DNA of 64,000 nt from NCBI RefSeq assembly GCF_000377625.1, contig NZ_KB898327.1:62001-126000 (forward strand). Reading direction: 5' to 3'. The stretch is from Prevotella veroralis DSM 19559 = JCM 6290 (GTDB taxonomy: Bacteria > Bacteroidota > Bacteroidia > Bacteroidales > Bacteroidaceae). Below the pieces are notes generated by a model that worked only from the letters and a program-made list of their open reading frames with translations, made no database searches and was not told the origin of the DNA. This document shows positions 2,363-60,359 of this stretch, in pieces. Every line of letters starts with the position of its first letter. Positions within the stretch are counted from its first letter, which is position 1. The translations under genes were made by a program, and so were the position numbers.

Positions 2363-2690
2363 TAACAGGTTTGCCCAGTTTTCTCACCTGTTTGCGAATC
2401 GTTTTCCACCTGTTCCAACATTATTTATCACCTGCTCTCCATTTCTTTCTAACGTGTTGCGCATCATTTACACACGCACATAAAGTTAGTTTCATCGTGA
2501 TGAGACACAAGTTTCATCGTGAAGATACACTGGTTTCATCATGATGAGACACTAGTTTCATCACGATGAGACAAGTAAAAGGTACGGATGAGAAAGACGC
2601 AAGAAGCGTGAGAAAGGAATGGGGAACGGGTGATAAAGAATGCGGAAACCTATTGGACAAAGAGTGCGAACAGGGTTAATTTAAATTGTA
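2363..2690. repeat. 22-bp-phased palindromic array A with inverted flanks
   Basis: Fills the gap between the zinc-ribbon gene and dinB; no gene is supported here. Four core units begin at 2489, 2511, 2533 and 2555, exactly 22 bp apart. Each contains a near-palindrome of the type GTTTCATCATGATGAGAC plus a short spacer. To the left the same phase continues in diverged form: CACCTG recurs at 2385, 2407 and 2429, with AACGTG at 2451. The right flank (about 2600-2680) is the imperfect reverse complement of the left flank; for example ATTTATCACCTG at 2423-2434 faces CGGGTGATAAAG at 2627-2638. The whole region is therefore an imperfect dyad about 320 bp long centred near 2531. Function unknown; four other arrays of the same design occur in the window. 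Confidence 0.85.
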
Positions 2691-25947: not shown

Positions 25948-28098
25948 CTAAGGGCGATCAGAAGGCTTAACACCGAATTGCGAAGGCTTATTACCCATAA
26001 CAAATTCGAGTGTTCCACCACGTACTATATCCTTGAAGTCAATGTAAGAACGAGTATAAGGCTTGCCATTCAGCTTCGCACTTTGTATATACTTATTCTC
26101 GGAACTATTGTTATGCGCAACTACACGGAAAGTCTTTCCATTACCAACATTCAATGTTGCTTCATCGAAGAGTGGCGATCCAAAGACATAACGACCACCA
26201 GCTGGATCAACCTGATAGAAGCCTACCGAAGACAGGATATACCATGCTGACATCTGTCCAACATCCTCATTTCCACTCAAACCATCAAAGTCATCATGAT
26301 ACAAGTTAGCCAAGACATAACGTATCTTGTCAGCCCCTTTCCAAGGTTGCCCAACATAGTTATACATATAGAGGATGTGGTGACTTGGCTCGTTACCATG
26401 CGCATATTGACCAATTAAACCAGTAATGTCTGGTGAGGCATCAGCACCCATATCACCATTGACAATGAATAGTGAATCGAGCTTAGAGACGAATGGTTTC
26501 TCCCCACCAAAGGCTGAAACAAGCCCGTGAACATCATGTGGAACTAACCAAACATACTGCCAAGCATTACCCTCAGTATAGTCATCCTGACGATGAACCG
26601 TGCTGAATGGATCGAATGGCTCACGGAACTTATGGTCGGAAGTAACGCCTCTCATGAACTTTGTTTGCTTATCGAAATAGAAGTCACGATAGGACTGGCT
26701 ACGCTTGTAGAAGTACTTATAATCCTCTGTCTTACCCAACTGCTTAGCAAGTTTGGCTATACAAGCATCGGCGAGCGCATACTCTAATCCCTTAGCAACC
26801 GTCTCCTTCTCTGGGTCGAGATCACAAGGAATATAACCGTATTTCTTCAATAGTCCCATACCTCGTTCATCTCTCATTGCAGAGGCTTTAACAGCTTCAA
26901 AGACAGCCTTCTTATCCACATTAAATCCTTTCAAAGCAATATCTACAAGTACAGGAATGCCAGGATTACCCACCATACAGTCTGTTTCATTACCCATCAA
27001 GTGCCAAACAGGGAGCTTACCTTGCTGCTTGAAGATATGTAGCATTGTCTCCGCAAGATCACGTTGCATCTCTGGTTGAATAAGCGTCATCAAGGGGAAG
27101 GCTGCACGATAAGTGTCCCAGAGAGAGAAGGTGGTGTAATCAGTGAAGTCACCCTTATGCGTCTTACCATCTGCCCCACGATACTCTCCATTCACATCAC
27201 TAAACACTGAAGGGGCTATCATCGTATGATAAAGTGCTGTATAGAATATACGTTTCGCACGCTCGTCCTGTGTCTTAATTGCAATCTTACTTAGCTCACG
27301 ATTCCAATCGGCATTCGCTTTAGACACAACACTTGCAAAGTTCCATCCAGGAAGCTCCTGTTGCAGATTCTCTCGAGCATTCTCTACGCTAACAGCAGAT
27401 ATACCAACCTTCACTAAAAGAGGCTGACTGGTTGATGCAACCGAGAATATTCCTATTGTATCACGCTCATTCTCTTCAAGTTTAACAGGCTCTGAAAACT
27501 CCGCAACAAAGTAAACTCGCTGGTCTTTAGCCCATCCTTCAGACAAGCGGAATCCTGTGATGGTCTTATCTGACTCCTGCTTGAACTTGCAAGAAGTCAT
27601 CTTATCCCATCCAATCCCTTGTGCGAGATTCAAAGCTATATAGCCCTTTGTAGCATCGGCTGGGAATGAGTAACGATGAAAGGCTACACGTTGGGTTGCG
27701 GTCAACTCTACCCTAATTCCTGAAGCTAACATCACCGAATAATAACCGGGACGGACATACTCTGCTCTATGCGAGAACTTCACTTCACGCTGTGAAGGGT
27801 TGGTCATAGGTAATAGAGAGACATCACCCAAGTCGCCAATACCCGTACCACTAAGGTGCATCTGCCCGAAGCCAATCACCGTAGAATCGCTATAATGATA
27901 GCCTGAACACCAATCCCAACCTTGTTTCTTTTGCGTTGGACCTGCTTGAATGTTACCAAATGGAACATTAGCACCTAGGAAGACATGACCATGACCACCT
28001 GTACCAATGAAAGGATTCACATACTGCGCGTAGTCTTGTGCACTAACAGAGAAGATTGTTGCTAGCGCTACAGCAGCAGTCAAAAAGATTTTCTTCAT
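25948..28098 (-). CDS. GH92 alpha-mannosidase (GNEPSHH type)
   Basis: A calcium-dependent exo-alpha-mannosidase of family GH92, 716 residues, secreted through a signal peptide (MKKIFLTAAVALATIFSVSA) cleaved before QDYAQYVNPFIGTGGHGHVF. Family marks are NVPFGNIQAGPTQKKQGWDW, GFGQMHLSGTGIGDLGD, SLWDTYRAAFPL, WHLMGNETDCMVGNPGIPVL (with the catalytic-region Glu), and AHGNEPSHHILYMYNYVGQP. The Ca-binding and acid/base residues appear intact. The GNEPSHH form is, in the family literature, linked to alpha-1,2 specificity; this is inference here. It is likely periplasmic and removes mannose from high-mannose chains. Upstream lies a 677-bp gap holding array B. Confidence 0.94.
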   Translation of the reverse strand: MKKIFLTAAVALATIFSVSAQDYAQYVNPFIGTGGHGHVFLGANVPFGNIQAGPTQKKQGWDWCSGYHYSDSTVIGFGQMHLSGTGIGDLGDVSLLPMTNPSQREVKFSHRAEYVRPGYYSVMLASGIRVELTATQRVAFHRYSFPADATKGYIALNLAQGIGWDKMTSCKFKQESDKTITGFRLSEGWAKDQRVYFVAEFSEPVKLEENERDTIGIFSVASTSQPLLVKVGISAVSVENARENLQQELPGWNFASVVSKANADWNRELSKIAIKTQDERAKRIFYTALYHTMIAPSVFSDVNGEYRGADGKTHKGDFTDYTTFSLWDTYRAAFPLMTLIQPEMQRDLAETMLHIFKQQGKLPVWHLMGNETDCMVGNPGIPVLVDIALKGFNVDKKAVFEAVKASAMRDERGMGLLKKYGYIPCDLDPEKETVAKGLEYALADACIAKLAKQLGKTEDYKYFYKRSQSYRDFYFDKQTKFMRGVTSDHKFREPFDPFSTVHRQDDYTEGNAWQYVWLVPHDVHGLVSAFGGEKPFVSKLDSLFIVNGDMGADASPDITGLIGQYAHGNEPSHHILYMYNYVGQPWKGADKIRYVLANLYHDDFDGLSGNEDVGQMSAWYILSSVGFYQVDPAGGRYVFGSPLFDEATLNVGNGKTFRVVAHNNSSENKYIQSAKLNGKPYTRSYIDFKDIVRGGTLEFVMGNKPSQFGVKPSDRP

Positions 28099-28344
28099 AA
28101 AGTTATAAATACTATTTATGATGACAGAATGACTCTACTCCGCATCGGGAGTTCTACTGTCTATGATTGAAAAGAATATTCACTTACTGAACGGGTACAT
28201 AGAGAGAGCCATAACGGAATATCCTTTACGAATAAAAGAGAGGGTAATATTTCTGCTCACTAACTTACTGATAAAGTTTAAGTTATAATCCCGTTGGACT
28301 AATTAGGCTGGCTAGTACCACTGTTTTAAGTTATATTGATGAGA

Positions 28345-28352
28345 CAAATTTA
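28345..28352 (-). promoter_or_regulatory. possible -7 box TAAATTTG for the GH92 gene
   Basis: Reads TAAATTTG on the minus strand, about 247 bp upstream of the GH92 ATG, implying a long leader. Weak support. Confidence 0.35.
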
Positions 28353-28483
28353 GCAACTATTAATGACATATCAAAACATTTCAATAACAAATGTCATTGC
28401 ATAGTATAAAAATGAGAGAGTAAACGATACGAAAGGGAGAAACCATAGAGGGGATATCTCTCCGCCGACTTTATCGTATCATG

Positions 28484-28637
28484 GAGTATCATCAGGGTGA
28501 TACTGGAGTATCATCAGGGTGATACTGGAATATCATCAGGGTGATACTGGAGTATCATTAGGGTGATACTGGAATATCATTAGGATGATACTGGAATATC
28601 ATTAGGATGATACTGGAATATCATTAGGATGATACAG
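28484..28637. repeat. 22-bp tandem palindromic array B
   Basis: Seven consecutive units of exactly 22 bp, starting at 28484, 28506, 28528, 28550, 28572, 28594 and 28616. Each holds a palindromic core such as GTATCATCAGGGTGATAC; the last three read ATATCATTAGGATGATAC. It lies in the 677-bp gap between the start of GH92 and the end of GH20, where I see no gene. The gradual change from TCAGGG to TTAGGA cores along the array looks like ongoing unit duplication or conversion. Confidence 0.95.
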
Positions 28638-28699
28638 AAGTAACACGTATGTATAAAGTTTGCATATCATGCGATTGCGAAAGGCTTATAACGCATGAA

Positions 28700-28724
28700 G
28701 GCTTGGCACTCTTCATGCCAAGCC
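28700..28724. terminator. hairpin GGCTTGGCA / TGCCAAGCC after GH20
   Basis: A perfect 9-bp stem (28700-28708 with 28716-28724), about 50 bp beyond the stop of the minus-strand GH20 gene. The T-tract on the minus strand is poor, so its role as terminator is tentative. Confidence 0.5.
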
Positions 28725-28775
28725 CTCATTTCCTTTAGATAGGATCGTCGATTTAATAGTAATGAAATACGACCT

Positions 28776-30872
28776 TTACTTCTTATTAATGATGATTTCG
28801 TCTGTGAAGATCCACGCATCTGGCTCACGCGAGGTGGCTTTCAAACGCACATAACGCGCCTGTACCGAACCCTTCCAGCGATAGGGGTAAACAAGGTAAT
28901 CGCTGCTTGTCTTGATACCAGGGAGCGTCTCATCTATTGTGGTAAACTTCTTTCCATCCTTTGAGACAAGTAGGGTTATGGTGTTAGGAACATAGATGAC
29001 AGCCTCCAACTGGTGCATGAAGTTGGCTTCCACATCCTTAATATCAGTTACCTTCCCCATGTCTACAATCACGTCAACGCCGGTGCTATCTATAAAGCCC
29101 TGCCATCTTCCCTCAAGGTAGCCCCAGTCTCCACACAGTCCATTGGTCAGCGTACTATCGCCTTCTGCACGATATTTCTCAGCGTATCGACCGAGATAGG
29201 TCACGGGTTTACCCAAACCTTCATGCTGCACGATGGAACGGCTTTCAGGGCGTGCGCCTTTCTCTTTTCGAATGTCGAAAGCATTATAGCCAGCACGTTT
29301 GAGTGCATCAGTTGTTGTAATTACTCGTTGACGGAAGTCGGCATAGCCTGTACGTTGCTTCGTCCATCCCGTCTCGGCTAATGCAAGCAATCGGGGGTAT
29401 ATCATATACTCTAGATGGTCAGGCTTCTCTATAAATTCCGTCCATACACAACCCTGTACACCATCGATATATTTCTCCAAAGACGTACCCTTATAAGCCG
29501 CTGGGATAGGGTCATAGTTGTAAGTCTTCTCCAATCTCGTATATCCTCCTTGCGCCTTTGGTTCCGTCATTGGGTCATCCTGATACATATTCAAATAGCA
29601 GAACTCTTGCGGTGCCATGACCACGTGGTGCCCACTCTTAGCGGCAGTCAATCCTGCTTCAGTGCCACGCCATGACATGACAGCGGCATTGGGAGCTAAA
29701 GTGCCTTCCATGATTTCATCCCATCCGAGGAGCTTTCTACCATTATCGTTAAGGAAGCGTTCTATGCGGTGAGTGAAATGACTCTGTAACTCGGCTACGT
29801 CCTTTAGATGATAGTCCTTCATTACACGCTGACAGTCGGGGCACGTCTTCCATGTGCGGCGTTCCGCCTCATCGCCTCCTATGTGAATGTACTTTGAAGG
29901 GAAGAGTTGCATTACCTCTTTCAATACATTCTCCATGAAAGTATAGGTCTGTTCTTTCCCTACGCATAAATCTGACTGAGTATAGGGCTTACCCGTACAT
30001 GACAACTCAGGGTAAGCATAGACAACCTCATCACTGTGCCCAGGCATTTCAATCTCTGGTATGATGGTGATATGGCGTGCAGCGGCATAATCGACAATCT
30101 CTTTAATGTCGTCCTGCGTGTAATAGCCACCATGTATATTCATTCCCTTCCAACATACAAGGCGGCTAGGATTAGGCGAATACTGGCGGTTCTTTCCGTT
30201 CCACCACTTCGTCCAGTCAGATTCTGTTCTATAGGCAGTCTCCTCTGTTAGGCGTGGATATTGCTTCACTTCCATGCGCCATCCGCCGCCGTCAGTGAGG
30301 TGCCAGTGGAATCTGTCGAGCTTGAAATACGCCATAGCGTCCAATTGCTTCTTGATTTCATCACTCGACCAGAAGTGTCTTGAGCAGTCTATCATCAGAC
30401 CACGATAAGCGAAACGGGGTGTATCTGTTATCTTTACACAAGGAATCTGGCGATCCTTCTCCAGCTGTCGTAGTGTTTGCAAACCATAGAAAAGTCCCAT
30501 AGGAGTTCTCGCCTGTATGGTCACGGCTGTTGGGGTAACATTTAACTCATACTCTTGTAGGCTTACGCTATCTGCCGCCATCGCCGCCTCCTGTTCCGTA
30601 CCAGTACAGATGAGGCGCAAGGGTGCATCAGCAGAGGGATTCTTTACGGATGAGAACGGAATATTCATTACATCTGAGGTGTACTGATTCAGTATCTTGA
30701 AGTCCTTTCCTTTAAGATTGGTCACGCCTTGTAGCCCCTTAGCCAATGTGAAAGTGCCTTGCTGACGAGTGATATTCTCGGGTTGAGGGATAATGCTCTG
30801 CGCACTGACAGGTTGTGTGATTGACGCTGATAACAGCAAGAATGCTGCGCCTATAAATACTTTTTTAATCAT
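28776..30872 (-). CDS. GH20 beta-N-acetylhexosaminidase
   Basis: A secreted exo-hexosaminidase that removes terminal beta-GlcNAc/GalNAc, 698 residues. It has a signal peptide (MIKKVFIGAAFLLLSASITQ to VSAQ) and an N-terminal GH20b domain. The catalytic barrel shows PRFAYRGLMIDCSRHFWSSD, RFHWHLTDGGGWRMEVKQYP, IIPEIEMPGHSDEVVYAYPE, and HIGGDEAERRTWKTCPDCQR with the catalytic Asp-Glu pair near residue 325; GCVWTEFIEKPDHLEYMIYP follows. A C-terminal region of about 140 residues ends YVRLKATSREPDAWIFTDEI and looks like a discoidin-type or chitobiase C-terminal domain. It is 57 bp downstream of the second GH92 gene and probably co-transcribed with it. Confidence 0.95.
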   Translation of the reverse strand: MIKKVFIGAAFLLLSASITQPVSAQSIIPQPENITRQQGTFTLAKGLQGVTNLKGKDFKILNQYTSDVMNIPFSSVKNPSADAPLRLICTGTEQEAAMAADSVSLQEYELNVTPTAVTIQARTPMGLFYGLQTLRQLEKDRQIPCVKITDTPRFAYRGLMIDCSRHFWSSDEIKKQLDAMAYFKLDRFHWHLTDGGGWRMEVKQYPRLTEETAYRTESDWTKWWNGKNRQYSPNPSRLVCWKGMNIHGGYYTQDDIKEIVDYAAARHITIIPEIEMPGHSDEVVYAYPELSCTGKPYTQSDLCVGKEQTYTFMENVLKEVMQLFPSKYIHIGGDEAERRTWKTCPDCQRVMKDYHLKDVAELQSHFTHRIERFLNDNGRKLLGWDEIMEGTLAPNAAVMSWRGTEAGLTAAKSGHHVVMAPQEFCYLNMYQDDPMTEPKAQGGYTRLEKTYNYDPIPAAYKGTSLEKYIDGVQGCVWTEFIEKPDHLEYMIYPRLLALAETGWTKQRTGYADFRQRVITTTDALKRAGYNAFDIRKEKGARPESRSIVQHEGLGKPVTYLGRYAEKYRAEGDSTLTNGLCGDWGYLEGRWQGFIDSTGVDVIVDMGKVTDIKDVEANFMHQLEAVIYVPNTITLLVSKDGKKFTTIDETLPGIKTSSDYLVYPYRWKGSVQARYVRLKATSREPDAWIFTDEIIINKK

Positions 30873-30929
30873 GAATATAGTGTCGTTGTGGTGGGATATA
30901 CGATAGGAATTAGCCTCGAATGACCCACC

Positions 30930-33188
30930 TTATTTCTTTAAATAAAACTTTAATACTCCGCCCTTCAAGAGCTCTTCATTACTGATGCGATATTGGTTCC
31001 ACGCCTTACCACCTAATTCCATCTTACTGATGATAACGTCATCGGGATTAGGGTGCACAGCCTCAATAACGAGCTTGTCCCTACCCCACTGCGCCTTATC
31101 CAGACGGATGGTTACCTTGTCAAAGACGGGGGATGTGAGGGTGTAATAGGGGTCGCCAGGGCAATCGGGATAGAATCCTATCATATTGAAGACTGCCCAA
31201 GCTGACATGGTTCCCGTATCGTCATTACCAGGAATGCCTTCTGGCGCATTCTTGAAATATTCCTTCAAGAGTCTGCGTGTCTGTACCTGTGTACGCCACT
31301 CGTCACCCTTGAAATATGAGAAGAGGTAAGGATAAGCAATATCGGGTTCATTGGCAGGGTCGTAATATCCCTTATCAAAGACGCTCTGTAACTTATCGAC
31401 GAATGACTTCTGACCTCCCATCAGCTTTGCTAAGCCTTTCACATCATGTGGCACATAGAACGAATAGTTCCAAGAATTGCCCTCGTGGAAGCCAGGTGAC
31501 GGCTCGAAGTTCTCTCCCTGCTTAGGGTCAAAGGGCTTATAGAAGCTACCATCGGGCATGATGGGGCGGAATACGCCATACTCCTTGCTGTAATAATGGC
31601 GATAACCTAACGAGCGATCATAGAAGAGTTTGGCGTCAGCTTTCTTGCCTAAGGCAGCTGCTAAACGTGATAGCGCATTATCTGCAATGTAATATTCCAG
31701 TGCGTGAGAGACCGAGTTATCATATTGTTCGTGCAGAGCAACATAGCCTTTCTGCATATACTCATCATTATCTGGGCGCAACGGATTATCGCTACCTTTC
31801 GTTAGCGCAGACTTACGGAAAGCCTCGTATGCCTTATTGATGTCGTAACCACGCAAGCCCTTGAGCCACGAATCGGTGATGACGGGAATCGCTGGGTCGC
31901 CTTCCATGGTGTAAGTCTCGCGACCAAAGAGTTCCCACTTCGGCATCCATCCATGTTCGTCATACATATCAATCATTGTACGAATCATATCACGCTGACG
32001 TTCTGGATAGACTAAGGTAAGCAACTGATGCACGTTGCGGTAAGTGTCCCAAAGCGAGAAGACGGTATAGCGGTTGCCCTCTTTTATGGTGCGAATATCG
32101 TTGCTCTCCATTGCTGGATATTGCCCATTGACGTCCTGTAGGATGTTAGGATGGATGAGGGTATGGTACAAGGCGGTATAGAAGATGGTGCGTTCCGTCT
32201 TCGTGCCTCCTTCAACGAGGATACGAGAAAGGTCATCATTCCACTGCTTGCGAGCGGCATTGTAGATGGCGTCAAAGTTCTTTCCATGCTGTTCGGCATT
32301 GAGATTCTCTCGTGCATTTGCAATACTGACAAATGATACGCCCATCTGTACTTCTACTTGCTCGTTAGCATCTGTATCGAAGTTCATCCATACTCCTATA
32401 TCATCGCCCGATAACTCTTTCTGATACTTCTTATAGAGCTTATACTTGCCATTGTCTGCATCCCATTCTGCCTCAACGCCTGTCATAGCACGTTGTTTCT
32501 TCCAATAGCCCGACTCTAAAGGCTTTTTGCTTATGCGCATAACGAAGTAGATAGGGAACACTGCCTGTGGGTTATAACAGAAGGTTCCTTGTAACTTCAT
32601 GCCCTCAAACTCGGTATTGCTTACCTTCCGCACCATGGCTCCCGTCTCATTCGTGAGCCCCTCGCCTAAGTTCAACAAAACGTGGCTCTCGCCTTTGGGG
32701 AACGTAAAGCGAGCTACTGAGGTGCGCGGTGTTGCGGTTACTTCGGTCTTGATGTCGTATTTGGTAAGATGGTTCGAGTAATAACCGGGATGGGCTACTT
32801 CCTTATCGTAAGTGCTACCATAGTTCTTATAGTCTACATCTAACTTCCCCGTCGTTGGCATAAGCAATAACGAGCCCACTTCTGGGCAACCTACGCCACT
32901 AAGGTTCACATGAGAGAAGCCTGTGAAATAGACATTATGATATTCATAAGGTGTTGACCACCATCTTGCATCCTTATCATACTTATTCAAGTCGGAACCC
33001 ATCACATTAAAGGGAACGACTGACATCAAACCATTCGGGCACACAGCACCAGGGTTGGTTGTTCCGAAGTTGGATGTTCCAATGAAAGGATTAACAAGAT
33101 CAACGGGTTCCTCGCCTGTCTTATCTGCAGCTCTCAAGGATAGAAAAGATAAGGAAATAAGGATTCCCAATAGGAGTTTAGGTCTCAT
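30930..33188 (-). CDS. GH92 alpha-mannosidase (divergent active-site type)
   Basis: A second GH92 enzyme, 752 residues from ATG at 33188 (MRPKLLLGILISLSFLSLRA signal peptide). The longer reading from 33221 adds eleven residues without improving the signal. Family marks include VNPFIGTSNFGTTNPGAVCP, GFSHVNLSGVGCPEVGSLLL, VFSLWDTYRNVHQLLTLVYP and WELFGRETYTMEGDPAIPVI. The position of GNEPSHH in the other GH92 is here DPANEPDIAYPYLFSYF, so the two His residues are replaced. This suggests a different linkage preference (such as alpha-1,3 or alpha-1,6), which is inference. The gene follows GH130 (150-bp gap) and precedes GH20 (57 bp), all on the minus strand. Confidence 0.92.
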   Translation of the reverse strand: MRPKLLLGILISLSFLSLRAADKTGEEPVDLVNPFIGTSNFGTTNPGAVCPNGLMSVVPFNVMGSDLNKYDKDARWWSTPYEYHNVYFTGFSHVNLSGVGCPEVGSLLLMPTTGKLDVDYKNYGSTYDKEVAHPGYYSNHLTKYDIKTEVTATPRTSVARFTFPKGESHVLLNLGEGLTNETGAMVRKVSNTEFEGMKLQGTFCYNPQAVFPIYFVMRISKKPLESGYWKKQRAMTGVEAEWDADNGKYKLYKKYQKELSGDDIGVWMNFDTDANEQVEVQMGVSFVSIANARENLNAEQHGKNFDAIYNAARKQWNDDLSRILVEGGTKTERTIFYTALYHTLIHPNILQDVNGQYPAMESNDIRTIKEGNRYTVFSLWDTYRNVHQLLTLVYPERQRDMIRTMIDMYDEHGWMPKWELFGRETYTMEGDPAIPVITDSWLKGLRGYDINKAYEAFRKSALTKGSDNPLRPDNDEYMQKGYVALHEQYDNSVSHALEYYIADNALSRLAAALGKKADAKLFYDRSLGYRHYYSKEYGVFRPIMPDGSFYKPFDPKQGENFEPSPGFHEGNSWNYSFYVPHDVKGLAKLMGGQKSFVDKLQSVFDKGYYDPANEPDIAYPYLFSYFKGDEWRTQVQTRRLLKEYFKNAPEGIPGNDDTGTMSAWAVFNMIGFYPDCPGDPYYTLTSPVFDKVTIRLDKAQWGRDKLVIEAVHPNPDDVIISKMELGGKAWNQYRISNEELLKGGVLKFYLKK

Positions 33189-33265
33189 AAAAAACATGCA
33201 GTTAATAGTTATTGCTGCCATGGCACATGAATGAAAAGGACTATGGCGAGCCTATAAGAAAATGA

Positions 33266-33314
33266 CTACGCACATCTCTGACATTATATGATAATACACC
33301 GAAGATGTGCGTAG
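33266..33314. repeat. perfect 12-bp inverted repeat between GH130 and GH92
   Basis: CTACGCACATCT (33266-33277) faces AGATGTGCGTAG (33303-33314) with a 25-nt loop, in the 151-bp gap between co-directional genes. No poly-T follows on either strand. Confidence 0.65.
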
Positions 33315-33339
33315 CTCCGTCTTACAAGTAGGTTGAAAC

Positions 33340-34314
33340 TTATAAGATGCTATTGTTCTTTGTAAATTCAACAATCTCTTTGATATAGCCGAACGTCATA
33401 CCAACGACGGTATCAGCTGCACCATAATATACAGCAACACGCTCGCCATCTTGCAAAGCAGCACATGGGAAGACTACATTTGGCACGTCTCCTTGCAATT
33501 CATACGTAGCTGCTGGAGCCAATAGGTAAGGACGAGTACGATAGAGCACCTTCTCTGGGTTGTCCTTATCAAGGATAGCTGCACCCATTGAATAACGGAA
33601 ACCATTACAAGTGTTGATTACGCCGTGATAGAACAAAAGCCAGCCCTCATCGGTCAAGAAAGGAACTGAACCAGCACCAATCTTTGTGCATTGCCATGCG
33701 CTCTCTGGGAAAGGAGTCACCTTCATCACGCAACGATGTTCGCCCCAATACTTCATGTCAGGGCTGAAGCTGATATAGATATCCCCGAAAGGAGTATGAC
33801 CATTATCGCTTGGACGGCTCAACATGGCATACTTCCCGTTAATCTTCTCTGGGAAGAGCACGCCATTTCGGTTGAATGGCAAGAAAGCATTCTCACACTG
33901 ATAGAACTTCTTAAAGTCGAAGGTGTAAGCAATTCCGATCGTTGGTCCGTGATAACCGTTGCACCAAGTAATCCAATAACGATCCTCAATCCATGTAACA
34001 CGTGGGTCATACTTGTACTCTGACTCAATCATTTCAGTGTTACCAGCCTCAAACGTAATAGGCTCGTGATTAATTTCCCAGTTGATACCGTCCTTACTGA
34101 AACCTGCGAAGATGTTCATCTGCACCGCCTTGTTATCGCAACGGAACACCCCAGCGAAGCCATCCTCAAATGGTACGACAGCACTGTTGAAGATACTGTT
34201 TGATGTTGGAATATGATAGCGGTCAATGATTGGATTCTTTGAATAACGCCACATCACATCCTTGCATCCAACAGGACGCTCCTCCCAAGGTAATATATCC
34301 TTAATACTTTTCAT
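33340..34314 (-). CDS. GH130 beta-mannoside phosphorylase family protein
   Basis: GH130 enzymes phosphorolyse beta-mannosides, giving mannose-1-phosphate. From ATG at 34314 the protein has 324 residues and no signal peptide, so it is cytoplasmic. Family-like stretches are [57 protein letters not shown] (with the catalytic Asp region), [35 protein letters not shown], and [20 protein letters not shown] followed by HGV. The 18 extra codons back to 34368 overlap the promoter box at 34366-34373 and are rejected. Together with GH92, GH20 and a NahK-like kinase it fits the known Bacteroides route in which Man-beta-1,4-GlcNAc from N-glycans is phosphorolysed. The exact substrate is inferred from context. 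Confidence 0.9.
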
Positions 34315-34365
34315 TATAAATAGTTTTATGTTTTTAGCTTGTGAATACCACTCAATTTTCGCAAA

Positions 34366-34373
34366 CAAAGTTA
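34366..34373 (-). promoter_or_regulatory. -7 box TAACTTTG for the glycan cluster
   Basis: Reads TAACTTTG on the minus strand, about 52 bp upstream of the GH130 ATG. Likely the main promoter of the minus-strand glycan genes. Confidence 0.6.
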
Positions 34374-34474
34374 ACTTTTTACTTCTACATAGAATAAGAA
34401 TTTATTATTCCTTAATTAGGAAAAACACTTATTAACGGGATATAAAGACTGATCCGACCGCTTTAAAAACAAGT

Positions 34475-34876
34475 GTATACGGGAGAAAGAGGAAAGCAAT
34501 ACGGATAGAGAAGACGGGCAATACGGGCAGAAAAGAAAGGGAATACGGCAAGCATAATAATTTTATCCGTATATTTTCTTGCTTTTATACGTATTTTGTT
34601 ATACTTTTGTACGCATATAATTTCATTTTCAGCATAGTGAAAAAACAATTTCAGCGTAGTGAAAGTATATTTTCAGCGTAGTGAAAATGTTTCATCAGCG
34701 TTGAGAAAATATAATTTGATACGCATTAAATTATGATAGAATACAAGAATAACTATAACGGAATACGGGAATAATTATGACGGAATACGCTTCCGACTGC
34801 GAAAATATACGAATCAAACAGCCAAAGAATATGCTTACAAATGGAAAAGAAAGCGTATCTGACGGCGAAAACGTAC
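34475..34876. repeat. 22-bp-phased palindromic array C, about 400 bp
   Basis: Fills nearly all of the gap between the GH130 and HU-like genes; no gene supported. An ATAC- or CAGC-centred hexamer recurs in strict 22-bp phase: 34475, 34497, 34519, 34541, 34563, 34585, 34607, 34629, 34651, 34673, 34695, 34717, 34739, 34761, 34783, 34805 and 34827, with a further fit at 34871. The four central units are palindromes of the type TTTTCAGCGTAGTGAAAA. The flanks are diverged: CAATACGG-type units to the left, GAATACGG-type to the right, and roughly inverted TTATACGT-type units near the centre. It is the longest of the five arrays and the clearest case of phase being kept after sequence has drifted. Confidence 0.88.
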
Positions 34877-34922
34877 ATAAGAAAAAGAAGAGTAAACGAA
34901 CAAAACAAAATTATAAAAGGTT

Positions 34923-35537
34923 ATGAGCATCAAATACAGACTACAAAAGAATTACGGAAAGCTGAAAGAGAAGGCAGAATTCCGTACAATCATCATGGAG
35001 CGACAGACCATCGGATTGGAACGCATTGGGCGCGACATACAAGGTGCAACGGCTCTTACGCGAGCGGATGTTTTCGCAACGGTTATGGCTCTGGGAGATG
35101 AAATAGCCAATCAACTATTGGACGGTAACGCTGTCCATCTGCCGGGTATCGGTTATTTCTCACTGGCTGTGAAAGGTGAGGTGTACGAGGATCCGCGCAC
35201 ACACAATCATCGATTGCGTAACCCGAAAGTGCGAACGATAAAGTTCCGCCCCGATCGTGAAATGGCGCATAAGCTCCTTTCTGCCAAATTCGAGAACGAA
35301 ACTCATCATTACGGCAATGCCTCCATTCCTACAGCCGAAGACATCGACCAAGCTCTCGAGGAACTTTTCGCCACAAAGTCTGTCATTACCATTGCCGACT
35401 TCCGCCGGTATCTCAATCTTTCCGCTTCTACTGCTTATCGCATTGCTGAACGATTGGAGGCGGCAGGCAGAATCCATAATATTGGGACACGCCGACTAAA
35501 GTTGTTTGAGTTGAGGAGTGGACAAGTAAACGAGTAG
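34923..35537 (+). CDS. HU-family DNA-binding protein with C-terminal winged-helix-like region
   Basis: A 204-residue protein. Residues about 1-125 resemble the longer HU/IHF-like proteins of Bacteroidota: MSIKYRLQKNYGKLKEKAEF, LTRADVFATVMALGDEIANQ, VHLPGIGYFSLAVKGEVYED, and a DNA-arm-like basic stretch NHRLRNPKVRTIKFRPDREM. Residues about 135-200 (IADFRRYLNLSASTAYRIAE, RLEAAGRIHNIGTRRLKLFE) look like a helix-turn-helix or winged-helix extension. It should bind DNA as a dimer and may be a nucleoid-type or local regulator. It lies directly next to array C, which is suggestive but proves nothing about binding there. Confidence 0.8.
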   Translation: MSIKYRLQKNYGKLKEKAEFRTIIMERQTIGLERIGRDIQGATALTRADVFATVMALGDEIANQLLDGNAVHLPGIGYFSLAVKGEVYEDPRTHNHRLRNPKVRTIKFRPDREMAHKLLSAKFENETHHYGNASIPTAEDIDQALEELFATKSVITIADFRRYLNLSASTAYRIAERLEAAGRIHNIGTRRLKLFELRSGQVNE

Positions 35538-35605: not shown

Positions 35606-35621
35606 CACCGACTTCCAAAGC

Positions 35622-35708
35622 GGAAGTTAGGGGGTGCTTGCCTGTTTGGGCTTGCTGAGAATATACCCATTGACCTGATACGGGTAATGCCGTCGTAGGG
35701 AAAATTCC
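35622..35708 (+). promoter_or_regulatory. TPP riboswitch (THI element)
   Basis: Contains the conserved THI-box blocks in order: GGGGGTGCTTG, GCTGAGAATATACCC, GACCTGATACGGGTAATGCC and GTCGTAGGGAAAA. The closing P1 helix pairs GGAA at 35622 with TTCC near 35705. A small hairpin ACTTCC/GGAAGT precedes it. It lies 34 bp ahead of the receptor ATG, so thiamine pyrophosphate should switch off the outer-membrane receptor, PnuT and thiamine pyrophosphokinase. Whether it acts on transcription or translation is not evident. Confidence 0.95.
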
Positions 35709-35741
35709 CCTTATTTGTATTTTAATATCATTACTAAGGAT

Positions 35742-38126
35742 ATGAAAAGAATTATCCTATTCACTGCTGCATTAACATGTGTAGCAACGACAAAGGCACA
35801 GGAAGTAACTGACACGCTCAAACAACAGCACTTGGAAGAAGTAATCGTAGCTGGCGTTCGAGTACAAAAGAATGCTCCTTATGCAGTGGCTAACATCAAG
35901 AAATCAGAACTTGAGGCTTTCTCTAAAACGGGACGTGAATTACCTTTCTTATTAGCTCAAACGCCGGGCGTATTGGCTTGGGGCGAGAACGGATTAGGAA
36001 CGGGTACCGCCGCTATGCGCATACGAGGCGCAGCAGGAAGTCGCATTAACATCACCTTAGACGGTGTGGCTTTAAACTCGCCAGAAGATCAGTCTGTGTT
36101 TTGGGCGAACATGAATTCGTATGCTTCGCTTATGGGAAGTGTTCAGATACAACGCGGTATCGGAACATCTACAAACGGCGACGGTGCTTTCGGCGGTTCG
36201 GTTTCTTTGGCGACAAGTTCACCCATGCGGACGCCGAGCGCAGAAGTCAGTGCATCATACGGTTCGTATAACACTTACAACGCAGGAATGAAGTTCTCAA
36301 CGGGTTTGCTCTTCAATCATCTTATCTTTGATGGGGCATATCACGAGACAGCGACTGATGGTTATGTCCACGGCACAAGCGGGCGGTCGGGTTCTTACTA
36401 TGGCGGTTTGACTTGGTTAGGAGATAACTTCCGTATTAGCTACAAGAACATCGGAAACTTTGAGAAGACGGGGCAGGCTTGGAATGGAGTTGTCGCTGGT
36501 AGCGATAATCTTAGTTTGATGGATGGCACTTTCGGAGTACATACGGGTATTAAAACTTACAAGGATCTTTACGATAGAGGATTAGGCAAATTCAATTCCC
36601 TATACGAGTATTTGCAAACAGACAATAATGGTGCTTTCGTCAAAGATGCTGCTGGGAATTATCAAACGGAACGATTTAAGATGCGCGATGGTTCGTTTTG
36701 GAAGAAGACTACCGATAACTTCTATCAGAATCACAACATCCTTTCTTTCCTCATTCATCCTGCACAGCATTGGAGCCATAACATAACCATACATTATACT
36801 TATGGTTATGGTTATTACAGCGAGTTCAAACGGAAAACAAAGCTGGCTAAGTTTGGTTTGCAATTCACCGACAATACTGGCACGCAGATAGCAAAGACTG
36901 ACCTCGTGCGTCGTAAGGGTTTGTCACAACACACCTACGGCGTTATCTATAATCTCAACTATAAAGATGAAAGCTGGGATGTGATGGGTGGCTTGAACCT
37001 TCAACAGTTCCGTGGTGATCACTTCGGATATCTTACTTATATCAAAGACCAACAGGTTGACAACAAGTTCCGACTTAACGGCAAGGATTATAAGTATTAT
37101 TCTTCTGACGCTCGTAAGTTCGATTACAGTGGTTTCTTCAAAGCTAATTACCACTTTAACAACTACTGGAATACGTTTATTGATCTTCAGTATCGCCGCG
37201 TGGAATATAGAACCAATGGCAAAAATGATAGATTCCGTAAGGGTGCTAACGGATACCATAATCAACTATTGAATATCAATAAGCATTATGACTTTATCAA
37301 TCCTAAAGCGGGCGTAAGTTACTATCGCGATGGGCACAAGGCTTACGCTTCTATCGCCTATGCTAACCGTGAACCTGAACGCAATAACTTTACCAACAAT
37401 GGTAGTTACCCTGCACCTTCGCCAGAACGATTGATGGATATAGAGCTTGGCTATCAGTACACAGGTAATAACTGGCATGCTGGCGTAAACCTTTATTATA
37501 TGGACTATACGAATCAGTTTGTGCAGACTGGCGAGAAGAGTGACATCGGCGAGAATCTTACCACAAACATCAAGAACAGCTATCGTATGGGTGCCGAGTT
37601 GGAAGCTGGCTGGAGTCCGTTGTCATGGTTGACAGTCGAAGGAAACGCTGCGTTAAGTCGCAATGTTATTAAGGACTTCGACGAGATGGCAAGTGTCAAC
37701 TTTGATGATTCTTTCCGCAAGATACATTATAATCACTCTACTTTGGCGTTCTCTCCATCAGCTATCCTCAATGGTTTCCTCGATTTACATTACAAAGGCA
37801 TTAAGGCTGTATGGCATACAAACTTCGTCAGTCGTCAGTATCTCGATAACACCGAGAACATAACCCGTTCATTACCTTGCTTTTCGCAGACGAATGTCAA
37901 CATCAGCTACTCTCTCCGTCCTGCAAAGCGTCTTATCGGTTTGAAAGAAGTTATCTTCGGTGTGAATCTTAACAACATCTTCAATCGTCATTATGCTGCC
38001 AGCGGATGGGTATATAGCTCTATCCTCGACAATGACGGTCACCCTAACGAGAACCGTTACACGCAGATTGGTTTTATCCCAATGGCAGGCTTTAATGTCA
38101 TGGGGAATGTTGCGTTGAAGTTCTAG
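35742..38126 (+). CDS. omr1: TonB-dependent outer-membrane receptor, predicted thiamine uptake
   Basis: A 794-residue TonB-dependent receptor. From ATG at 35742 it has a signal peptide (MKRIILFTAALTCVATTKAQ), a TonB-box-like region near LEEVIVAGVRV, a plug domain (ELPFLLAQTPGVLAWGENGL, AMRIRGAAGSRINITLDGVA, FGGSVSLATSS) and a 22-strand-type barrel ending FNVMGNVALKF with the terminal Phe. The earlier ATG at 35715 adds nine residues before the signal and lies immediately after the riboswitch. TPP-riboswitch control and the downstream pnuT and TPK genes match the predicted thiamine uptake operon of Bacteroidota (omr1-pnuT-tnr3). Substrate assignment to thiamine or its phosphates rests on this context. 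Confidence 0.92.
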   Translation: MKRIILFTAALTCVATTKAQEVTDTLKQQHLEEVIVAGVRVQKNAPYAVANIKKSELEAFSKTGRELPFLLAQTPGVLAWGENGLGTGTAAMRIRGAAGSRINITLDGVALNSPEDQSVFWANMNSYASLMGSVQIQRGIGTSTNGDGAFGGSVSLATSSPMRTPSAEVSASYGSYNTYNAGMKFSTGLLFNHLIFDGAYHETATDGYVHGTSGRSGSYYGGLTWLGDNFRISYKNIGNFEKTGQAWNGVVAGSDNLSLMDGTFGVHTGIKTYKDLYDRGLGKFNSLYEYLQTDNNGAFVKDAAGNYQTERFKMRDGSFWKKTTDNFYQNHNILSFLIHPAQHWSHNITIHYTYGYGYYSEFKRKTKLAKFGLQFTDNTGTQIAKTDLVRRKGLSQHTYGVIYNLNYKDESWDVMGGLNLQQFRGDHFGYLTYIKDQQVDNKFRLNGKDYKYYSSDARKFDYSGFFKANYHFNNYWNTFIDLQYRRVEYRTNGKNDRFRKGANGYHNQLLNINKHYDFINPKAGVSYYRDGHKAYASIAYANREPERNNFTNNGSYPAPSPERLMDIELGYQYTGNNWHAGVNLYYMDYTNQFVQTGEKSDIGENLTTNIKNSYRMGAELEAGWSPLSWLTVEGNAALSRNVIKDFDEMASVNFDDSFRKIHYNHSTLAFSPSAILNGFLDLHYKGIKAVWHTNFVSRQYLDNTENITRSLPCFSQTNVNISYSLRPAKRLIGLKEVIFGVNLNNIFNRHYAASGWVYSSILDNDGHPNENRYTQIGFIPMAGFNVMGNVALKF

Positions 38127-38163
38127 CCTCACCCCCGCCCCCTCTCCTATTGGAGAGGGGAGT
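38126..38163 (-). repeat. GC-rich palindromic repeat, copy 1 (inverted relative to copy 2)
   Basis: Starts at the stop codon of the receptor gene: GCCTCACCCCCGCC, then CCTCTCC-TATT-GGAGAGG. It is the near reverse complement of the copy at 38261-38298, so the pair could fold into a larger stem. Confidence 0.85.
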
Positions 38164-38260
38164 AGATACCGAGACTTCCCTAAATGATAAACCATATATA
38201 TGAGAAGATTACTATTCGAGTTTAACTATTACATTATAAACTTAGCAAACGCCACATTCC

Positions 38261-38298
38261 ACTCCCCTCTCCAATCGGAGAGGGGCTGGGGGTGAGGC
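38261..38298 (+). repeat. GC-rich palindromic repeat, copy 2
   Basis: ACTCCCCTCTCC-AATC-GGAGAGGGG followed by CTGGGGGTGAGGC, 7 bp before pnuT. Nearly identical to the copy at 60360-60398. Confidence 0.85.
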
Positions 38299-60021: not shown

Positions 60022-60187
60022 ATAATGAATTGTAACAAGTGATTACAATCAGTTGTCACGTATTGTTACAATCAGTTGTCACGCACTATACAATGAATTG
60101 TCACGTACCATACAATGAATTATAACGCGCTGTATAATCGAGTATCACACGTATGATACTCAAGTATCATAAGGATGATACTGAGTG
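60022..60187. repeat. 22-bp-phased palindromic array D
   Basis: Units are anchored at 60022, 60045, 60068, 60090, 60112, 60134, 60156 and 60178: five intervals of 22 bp and two of 23. Cores are palindromes such as ACAATGAATTGT, ACAATCAGTTGT and GATACTCAAGTATC. It lies in the 544-bp convergent gap between ettA and the YfhO gene, which otherwise holds the ettA terminator and one GC-rich palindromic repeat. Along the array the core changes from ACAAT-type to GATACT-type while the period is kept. Confidence 0.85.
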
Positions 60188-60359
60188 ATAAAAGCCCATA
60201 TAGGGTATTCAATCATATAAGTGAGCGTTCCTATTAGCGTCCGTCTTTGCTCTTCGCCCTATCACCTACGAACAAAAGGAAGTGCTTTGTGGGAGAGTAA
60301 ACACGTTTACGAGTAAACCTGTAGACAAGTTGTTACCTCGTTACCCACCGTCCCTAATC

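Follow-up and report, generated by a model that had tools for sequence, protein, structure and literature searches.

Arrays of DNA sites that are bound by the product of the gene beside them are a known kind of arrangement, of which iterons, centromere arrays and REP/RAYT systems are examples. On plasmids, they include the 22-bp iterons of R6K and autoregulatory arrays of the parC/parS type. In REP/BIME-RAYT systems palindromes flank the gene of the protein and are also dispersed through intergenic DNA, and protein and palindrome are paired paralogue by paralogue. HU-like proteins are usually regarded as unspecific packers of DNA; the HU-HIG family (PF18291) was reportedly treated by Burroughs et al. 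in 2017. BrickBuilt of Porphyromonas gingivalis is a single sequence family with a leader and tail and IS5-type terminal repeats (PMC4596501). No linkage of it to HU-like genes is reported, and the published table lists BrickBuilt_14 beside a PF00216 DNA-binding gene (PMC4596501).

The locus considered here lies in a 64,000-nucleotide stretch of the Prevotella veroralis genome (the window) and comprises a chromosomal array of 22-bp units, array C, in front of an HU-HIG gene. In the searchable literature, outside which the main HU-HIG paper falls, we found no description of chromosomal HU-HIG genes that each have a private array of 22-bp palindromes.

Results

Array C keeps a 22-bp phase

Written in rows of 22, array C (Table 1) shows ATACG/GTACG/CAGCG-type hexamers in 17 consecutive units, from 34475 to 34827, with the constant phase that the first-pass annotation had described; the further hexamer that it had placed at 34871 is present in a weaker form, as GTACAT at 34873. 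The four central units are palindromes and the outer units are diverged, again as had been claimed, the fourth palindrome being itself degenerate. Over about 34470-34880 the identity of the sequence with itself is 0.58 at a lag of 22, 0.50 at 44 and 0.45 at 66, and around 0.29 at the remaining lags; in all 5000 Markov-1 simulations of the same dinucleotide make-up the maximum across lags 8-60 was at or below 0.40. Neighbouring units differ at 43% of their sites. They are joined head to tail at 22 bp without spacers, so the array does not have the conserved repeats and unique spacers of a CRISPR.

When about 400 Prevotella genomes were searched at the DNA level, array C itself was matched only in P. 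vespertina. A comparison of the orthologous regions, the check for indels in multiples of 22 that the first-pass annotation had proposed, gives 36 substitutions over 452 aligned bases; the single net indel within the array is exactly 22 bp, and a 9-bp indel falls outside the array. The persistence of phase through substitution had been taken to imply either selection against indels or a template-based process that makes units of fixed length. The local intergenic indel/substitution ratio of 0.113 predicts about 17 indels between the diverged units of array C, which show none; this prediction is a rough estimate and carries an ascertainment bias, arrays being recognised by their phase. These data favour selection, and templating finds no support. 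Between other orthologous arrays the differences in length are 44 or 66 bp. Within-array pairwise indel counts for array B and two further arrays (L025 and L023) were left out as unusable, since turnover or paralogy of these arrays makes them misalign, and the sites at which the relative lacks an array were too unclean as empty sites to fix the ends of an insertion. Array D and the families of 21- and 23-bp units tolerate ±1 bp between families, and the rule is therefore one of helical phase rather than of exactly 22 bp. Selection for helical phase accounts for the scarcity of indels in array C, and a templating process is not needed. A better explanation of the fixed unit length is that it reflects the footprint of DNA-binding proteins of one family, encoded next to the arrays.

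Table 1. Features of the window that bear on the 22-bp arrays.
Feature	Position	Strand	Remarks
Array A: dispersed element of ~316 bp with four palindromes GTTTCATCRYGATGAGAC	2363..2677	.	GTTTCATCRYGATGAGAC also in HU-HIG leader G000:C15:8134
Array B: 22-bp units TATCATCAGGGTGATA	28418..28709	.	no HU-HIG partner found
Array C: region in 22-bp phase	34475..34892	.	identity 0.58 at lag 22
In-phase degenerate units upstream of promoter box	34475..34601	.	contains the sole 22-bp indel relative to P. vespertina
TAnnTTTG -7 box TACTTTTG of HU-HIG gene	34602..34609	+	Bacteroides consensus
Palindrome 1 TTTTCAGCATAGTGAAAA	34626..34643	.	predicted HU-HIG site
Palindrome 2 ATTTCAGCGTAGTGAAAG	34648..34665	.	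predicted HU-HIG site
Palindrome 3 TTTTCAGCGTAGTGAAAA	34670..34687	.	predicted HU-HIG site
Palindrome 4, degenerate, TCATCAGCGTTGAGAAAA	34692..34709	.	predicted HU-HIG site
Degenerate in-phase units with GAATACG-type half sites, from palindromes to start codon	34710..34892	.	arrangement recurs in other HU-HIG leaders
HU-HIG (PF18291) protein, 204 aa, HU fold and C-terminal winged helix-turn-helix (predicted)	34923..35537	+	Pfam, AlphaFold2, Foldseek
Array D: 22/23-bp units	60038..60222	.	no HU-HIG partner found

Array C probably forms the leader of an HU-HIG gene

The protein encoded by the gene at 34923 matches the HU-HIG profile over residues 1-124 with an E-value of 7e-26 and 91.2 bits (cut-off 26.2). 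The AlphaFold2 model has a pLDDT of 81 and Foldseek matches to HU/IHF at an E-value of 5e-5, and the predicted HU fold is followed by predicted helices at 138-151, 157-164 and 168-180 and a wing, i.e. a winged-helix fusion. This protein is the predicted binder and autoregulator of array C. Its predicted operators correspond to the four central palindromes, with the diverged units outside them as putative in-phase arms. Elsewhere in the neighbourhood there is a cluster of GH92, GH20, GH92 and GH130 genes (25948-34368; N-glycan or mannose use). Its GH130 gene is oriented divergently to the HU-HIG gene and carries a separate TAnnTTTG box, at 34366-34373 on the minus strand. A TonB-dependent receptor gene (35715) has a TPP riboswitch (35620-35718) immediately in front of it.

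The P. veroralis genome has 23 matches to the HU-HIG profile. A palindromic array of 21-23 bp period was found within 350 bp upstream of 15 of the 18 HU-HIG genes inspected and of 19 of 422 other genes (Fisher 5e-16), and when the comparison is limited to long upstream gaps the association persists, with an array at 18/109 other genes against 15/18 (4e-8). An ordinary HU gene is without an array upstream. In genomes of other genera, HU-HIG genes with an upstream array number 5 of 8 (G450), 3 of 6 (G423), 2 of 8 (G416) and 1 of 2 (G454). Among the HU-HIG genes without an array are G003:C20, G017:C35 and most of those of G416. The first of these, G003:C20 of P. vespertina (L034:2646-3145), is a 97.5% orthologue of the P. 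veroralis gene C1:73932 whose promoter and array have been replaced by adjacent genes on the opposite strand; despite the lost leader array, the palindrome family of C1:73932 is still dispersed in P. vespertina (22 copies).

Winged-helix HU-HIG genes share a common leader design. Such genes, 41 in all, were found in 23 of 247 genomes (Prevotella), and about 35 of them have a strong palindromic array upstream, as against 5% of 130 control genes. A TAnnTTTG box comes first and is followed, after a constant gap, by palindromes at 21-23-bp steps, as a rule four of them; degenerate in-phase units then lead up to the start codon, and each leader carries its own palindrome sequence. TAnnTTTG, which in Bacteroides is the -7 consensus for the main sigma factor (PMC7366714), occurs once per ~425 bp. 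In array C the gap from TACTTTTG to the first palindrome is 16 bp, and the distance from box to first palindrome is identical in 31 of the 41 leaders, the fixed position that is expected of an autoregulatory operator array. The shorter class of HU-HIG genes has the array upstream of the promoter, not downstream, and therefore repression by blocking need not be general.

Arrays of 22-bp period are widespread, and one family is dispersed as an element

Arrays A (about 2419-2653), B and D are intergenic and have the 22-bp period of array C, with unrelated units. Among tandem arrays of period 8-60 in 542 kb of P. veroralis and 315 kb of Prevotella vespertina, nearly all have a period of 22, fewer 21 or 23, and essentially none 20 or 24. 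The density is ~8 per 100 kb in the sampled P. veroralis genome, for which the census covers 542-752 kb of stretches, and shuffled sequence gave none. Most stretches of other Prevotella genomes carry such arrays, again with unrelated palindromic units. The arrays are intergenic, lying between convergent gene pairs more often than expected and between divergent pairs less often.

No HU-HIG partner was found for over half of the arrays sampled in P. veroralis, B and D included. The large families TATACANACGTGTATA, TTGGACAAACGTGTCCAA, AGGCGTTTCCTTGATGTGAAGA and TCTCCAAGTGCTTTGTAATA (e.g. L021:10575, L130:12217, L026:5416 and L019:7755) match no HU-HIG leader and may be owned by a further DNA-binding family. 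At the position of array B in P. vespertina (L032:14133-14419) the array is composed differently, with one TATCATCAGCATGATA unit followed by TGACTCGTATGTGTCA units, and the difference upstream of it is 66 bp, i.e. three units. BLAST from the flank of array D also revealed a separate repeat of ~39 bp, about 90-100% alike in many genome copies, at about 60360, 38125-38163 and 38260-38298.

Array A belongs to an element of which the P. veroralis genome contains nine near-full copies, with constant ends (TAACAGGTTYGCCCAG...GCGCAAACAGGGTT), a 22-bp grid throughout and inverse arms flanking the four palindromes. The copies differ by 22 or 66 bp plus a few single bases; the two arms match one another imperfectly in inverse orientation, and inspection by eye showed no duplication. 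Constant ends in several copies are a trait that the element shares with MITE/BrickBuilt-like elements. The dispersal of array A, with its near-full copies, constant ends and differences of whole 22-bp units, could be taken to mean that arrays are minisatellites within mobile elements and that their phase is inherited by element copying; BrickBuilt is a 23-nt minisatellite MITE from an order shared with Prevotella (PMC4596501). We consider this unlikely. Array C is not dispersed as an element, having only one partial related patch elsewhere rather than several copies with constant ends; unit sequences are unrelated across families, yet all are of 21-23 bp; and no target-site duplication or transposase-type terminal repeat was recognised by eye in the copies of array A. 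Element copying also leaves the spacing from the -7 box and the linkage to HU-HIG genes unexplained. Dispersal as a mobile element is real for one family, but it does not explain the leaders.

Palindromes are paired with HU-HIG paralogues

Orthologous HU-HIG proteins keep a common palindrome (C3, 94% identity; C15/C21b, 95%; C1a/G378, 81-83%), and paralogues at or below 63% identity have differing ones. C21a, a 59% paralogue of C15, has a different palindrome; the candidate that the L023/L035 pair represents rapidly diverged orthologues was rejected, as the true orthologue of C15 is G003:C21b (95%, palindrome kept). The leader palindrome of C1:73932, TTATCTAAGYSTGATAA, occurs in 31, 22 and 32 copies in exactly those 3 of 247 genomes that have this HU-HIG orthologue, and in none of the other 244; the backwards control gave 0. 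The sequence of family A is present in 34 and 15 copies in the two genomes with a C15-type protein and in at most 2 copies elsewhere. Another hairpin unit, AAAAGCTCTTAAGCTTTT, is present once at L061:14464-14851 in P. veroralis and three times at L073:7059-7491 in P. vespertina, a difference of exactly 44 bp, and matches the leader palindrome of the HU-HIG gene C14:24533.

At the start of the recognition helix, Tyr at residue 170 goes with the absence of C at half-site distance 5 (0/12 vs 19/22, P 8e-7; P 2e-4 on 24 representatives). This association had caught our attention before it was tested, and it is confounded by clade; residues 27 and 29 in the HU part associate as well. With close relatives removed, protein distance and palindrome distance correlate weakly (Mantel r 0.15, 142 of 2000 permutations). 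One might suppose that another regulator or nucleoid protein binds the palindromes and that HU-HIG genes are merely among its targets, given that binding by HU-HIG proteins is what we infer and that many arrays were found without an HU-HIG partner. Such a regulator is very unlikely in view of the palindrome family that is private to each HU-HIG paralogue, the co-occurrence of orthologue and motif (3/3 vs 0/244 genomes) and the recognition-helix association, all of which point to the HU-HIG protein itself.

Palindrome symmetry is at the level of DNA

RNA hairpins had come into consideration because arrays A and B seemed to contain wobble pairs; this candidate was rejected on balanced counts of G.T and A.C mismatches. 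For array C, which lies within a predicted transcribed leader and in which every unit can fold, the corresponding proposal is that the HU-HIG mRNA forms four hairpins in its 5' leader, which act as an attenuator or stability element. Against this, the transcribed strand of 34 leaders has 52 G.U and 82 A.C, without the G.U excess of strand-specific pairing, and over 65 arrays the numbers are balanced at 94 vs 89 sites (G.T vs A.C); the symmetry of the palindromes is therefore at the DNA level. The shorter HU-HIG genes have their arrays upstream of the promoter, Rfam gave no match within array C, and a role as RNA is highly improbable. We give next to no credence to functionless minisatellites grown and shrunk by replication slippage, common as gains and losses of whole units are, since the 21-23-bp length is constant in unrelated sequences across the genus, the units are palindromic and usually four in number at a fixed distance from the box, and the phase is kept at 43% unit divergence.

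Discussion

Array C is likely to serve the HU-HIG gene at 34923 as its promoter-operator leader, and the protein of that gene would bind these palindromes and repress its own transcription. The array, its spacing from the box, its association with the gene and the pairing of palindrome with paralogue are direct observations. RNA polymerase would start just past the TAnnTTTG box at 34602, and the HU-HIG protein would occupy the four 22-bp-spaced palindromes directly downstream. It would probably do so in dimeric form, in a cooperative lattice that advances two helical turns per step. The bound complex would repress transcription of its own gene, and the weaker in-phase half sites on both flanks would allow it to extend. 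Base changes would be tolerated in such a lattice, and an indel of anything but whole units would turn neighbouring protomers to the wrong face of the helix; array C would have kept its 22-bp phase because partial-unit indels misplace these protomers. The palindrome sequence would drift along with the protein. There is one palindrome family per HU-HIG paralogue, and some families are also found away from the gene. Binding and cooperativity, as well as autorepression and any role at dispersed sites, are put forward here on the basis of sequence comparison.

A wider proposal, to which we hold only tentatively, is that the expanded HU-HIG paralogue sets of the Bacteroidales may be orthogonal nucleoid proteins with private palindromic addresses, located in their own leaders and at dispersed sites and read as a two-turn lattice. 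A genome could then be marked by many parallel, fast-diverging systems of DNA addressing, each with four strong sites as its origin and the degenerate in-phase arms as the zone into which it spreads. If true, HU paralogues would be sequence-addressed, self-controlled regulators rather than packing proteins, and the pairing would account for a large class of 22-bp repeats in oral Prevotella that have so far had no explanation. The matched pairs of protein and site would form a natural library from which winged-helix specificity could be read, and what HU-HIG expansions do would become directly testable.

Among described systems, the gene at 34923 is a member of the HU-HIG family PF18291, for which no cognate palindromic arrays were found described in searchable papers. 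BrickBuilt resembles the present arrays as intergenic tandem repeats of 23 bp in the Bacteroidales that are dispersed and vary in unit number (PMC4596501), but it is a single family with leader/tail and IS5-type terminal repeats, whereas here there are many unrelated families. The likeness to REP/BIME-RAYT systems extends to the gene beside its palindromes, the dispersed copies and the paralogue-wise pairing. A RAYT/REP system was nevertheless rejected, as the Y1 (IS200-like) transposase profile PF01797 has 0 matches in the 99.98% complete genome, where positive controls were found; the linked protein is instead a predicted HU/winged-helix protein, and the units of HU-HIG leaders are in tandem on a 22-bp grid whose distance from the promoter is fixed. 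Genes for replication or partition were not seen beside array C. Plasmid iteron and centromere arrays share with it the fixed-length tandem sites in the leader of the presumed binder's gene and the predicted autoregulation; they differ in that the arrays described here are chromosomal, belong to a set of 18 HU-HIG paralogues inspected in one genome, and consist of palindromic units that are private to each.
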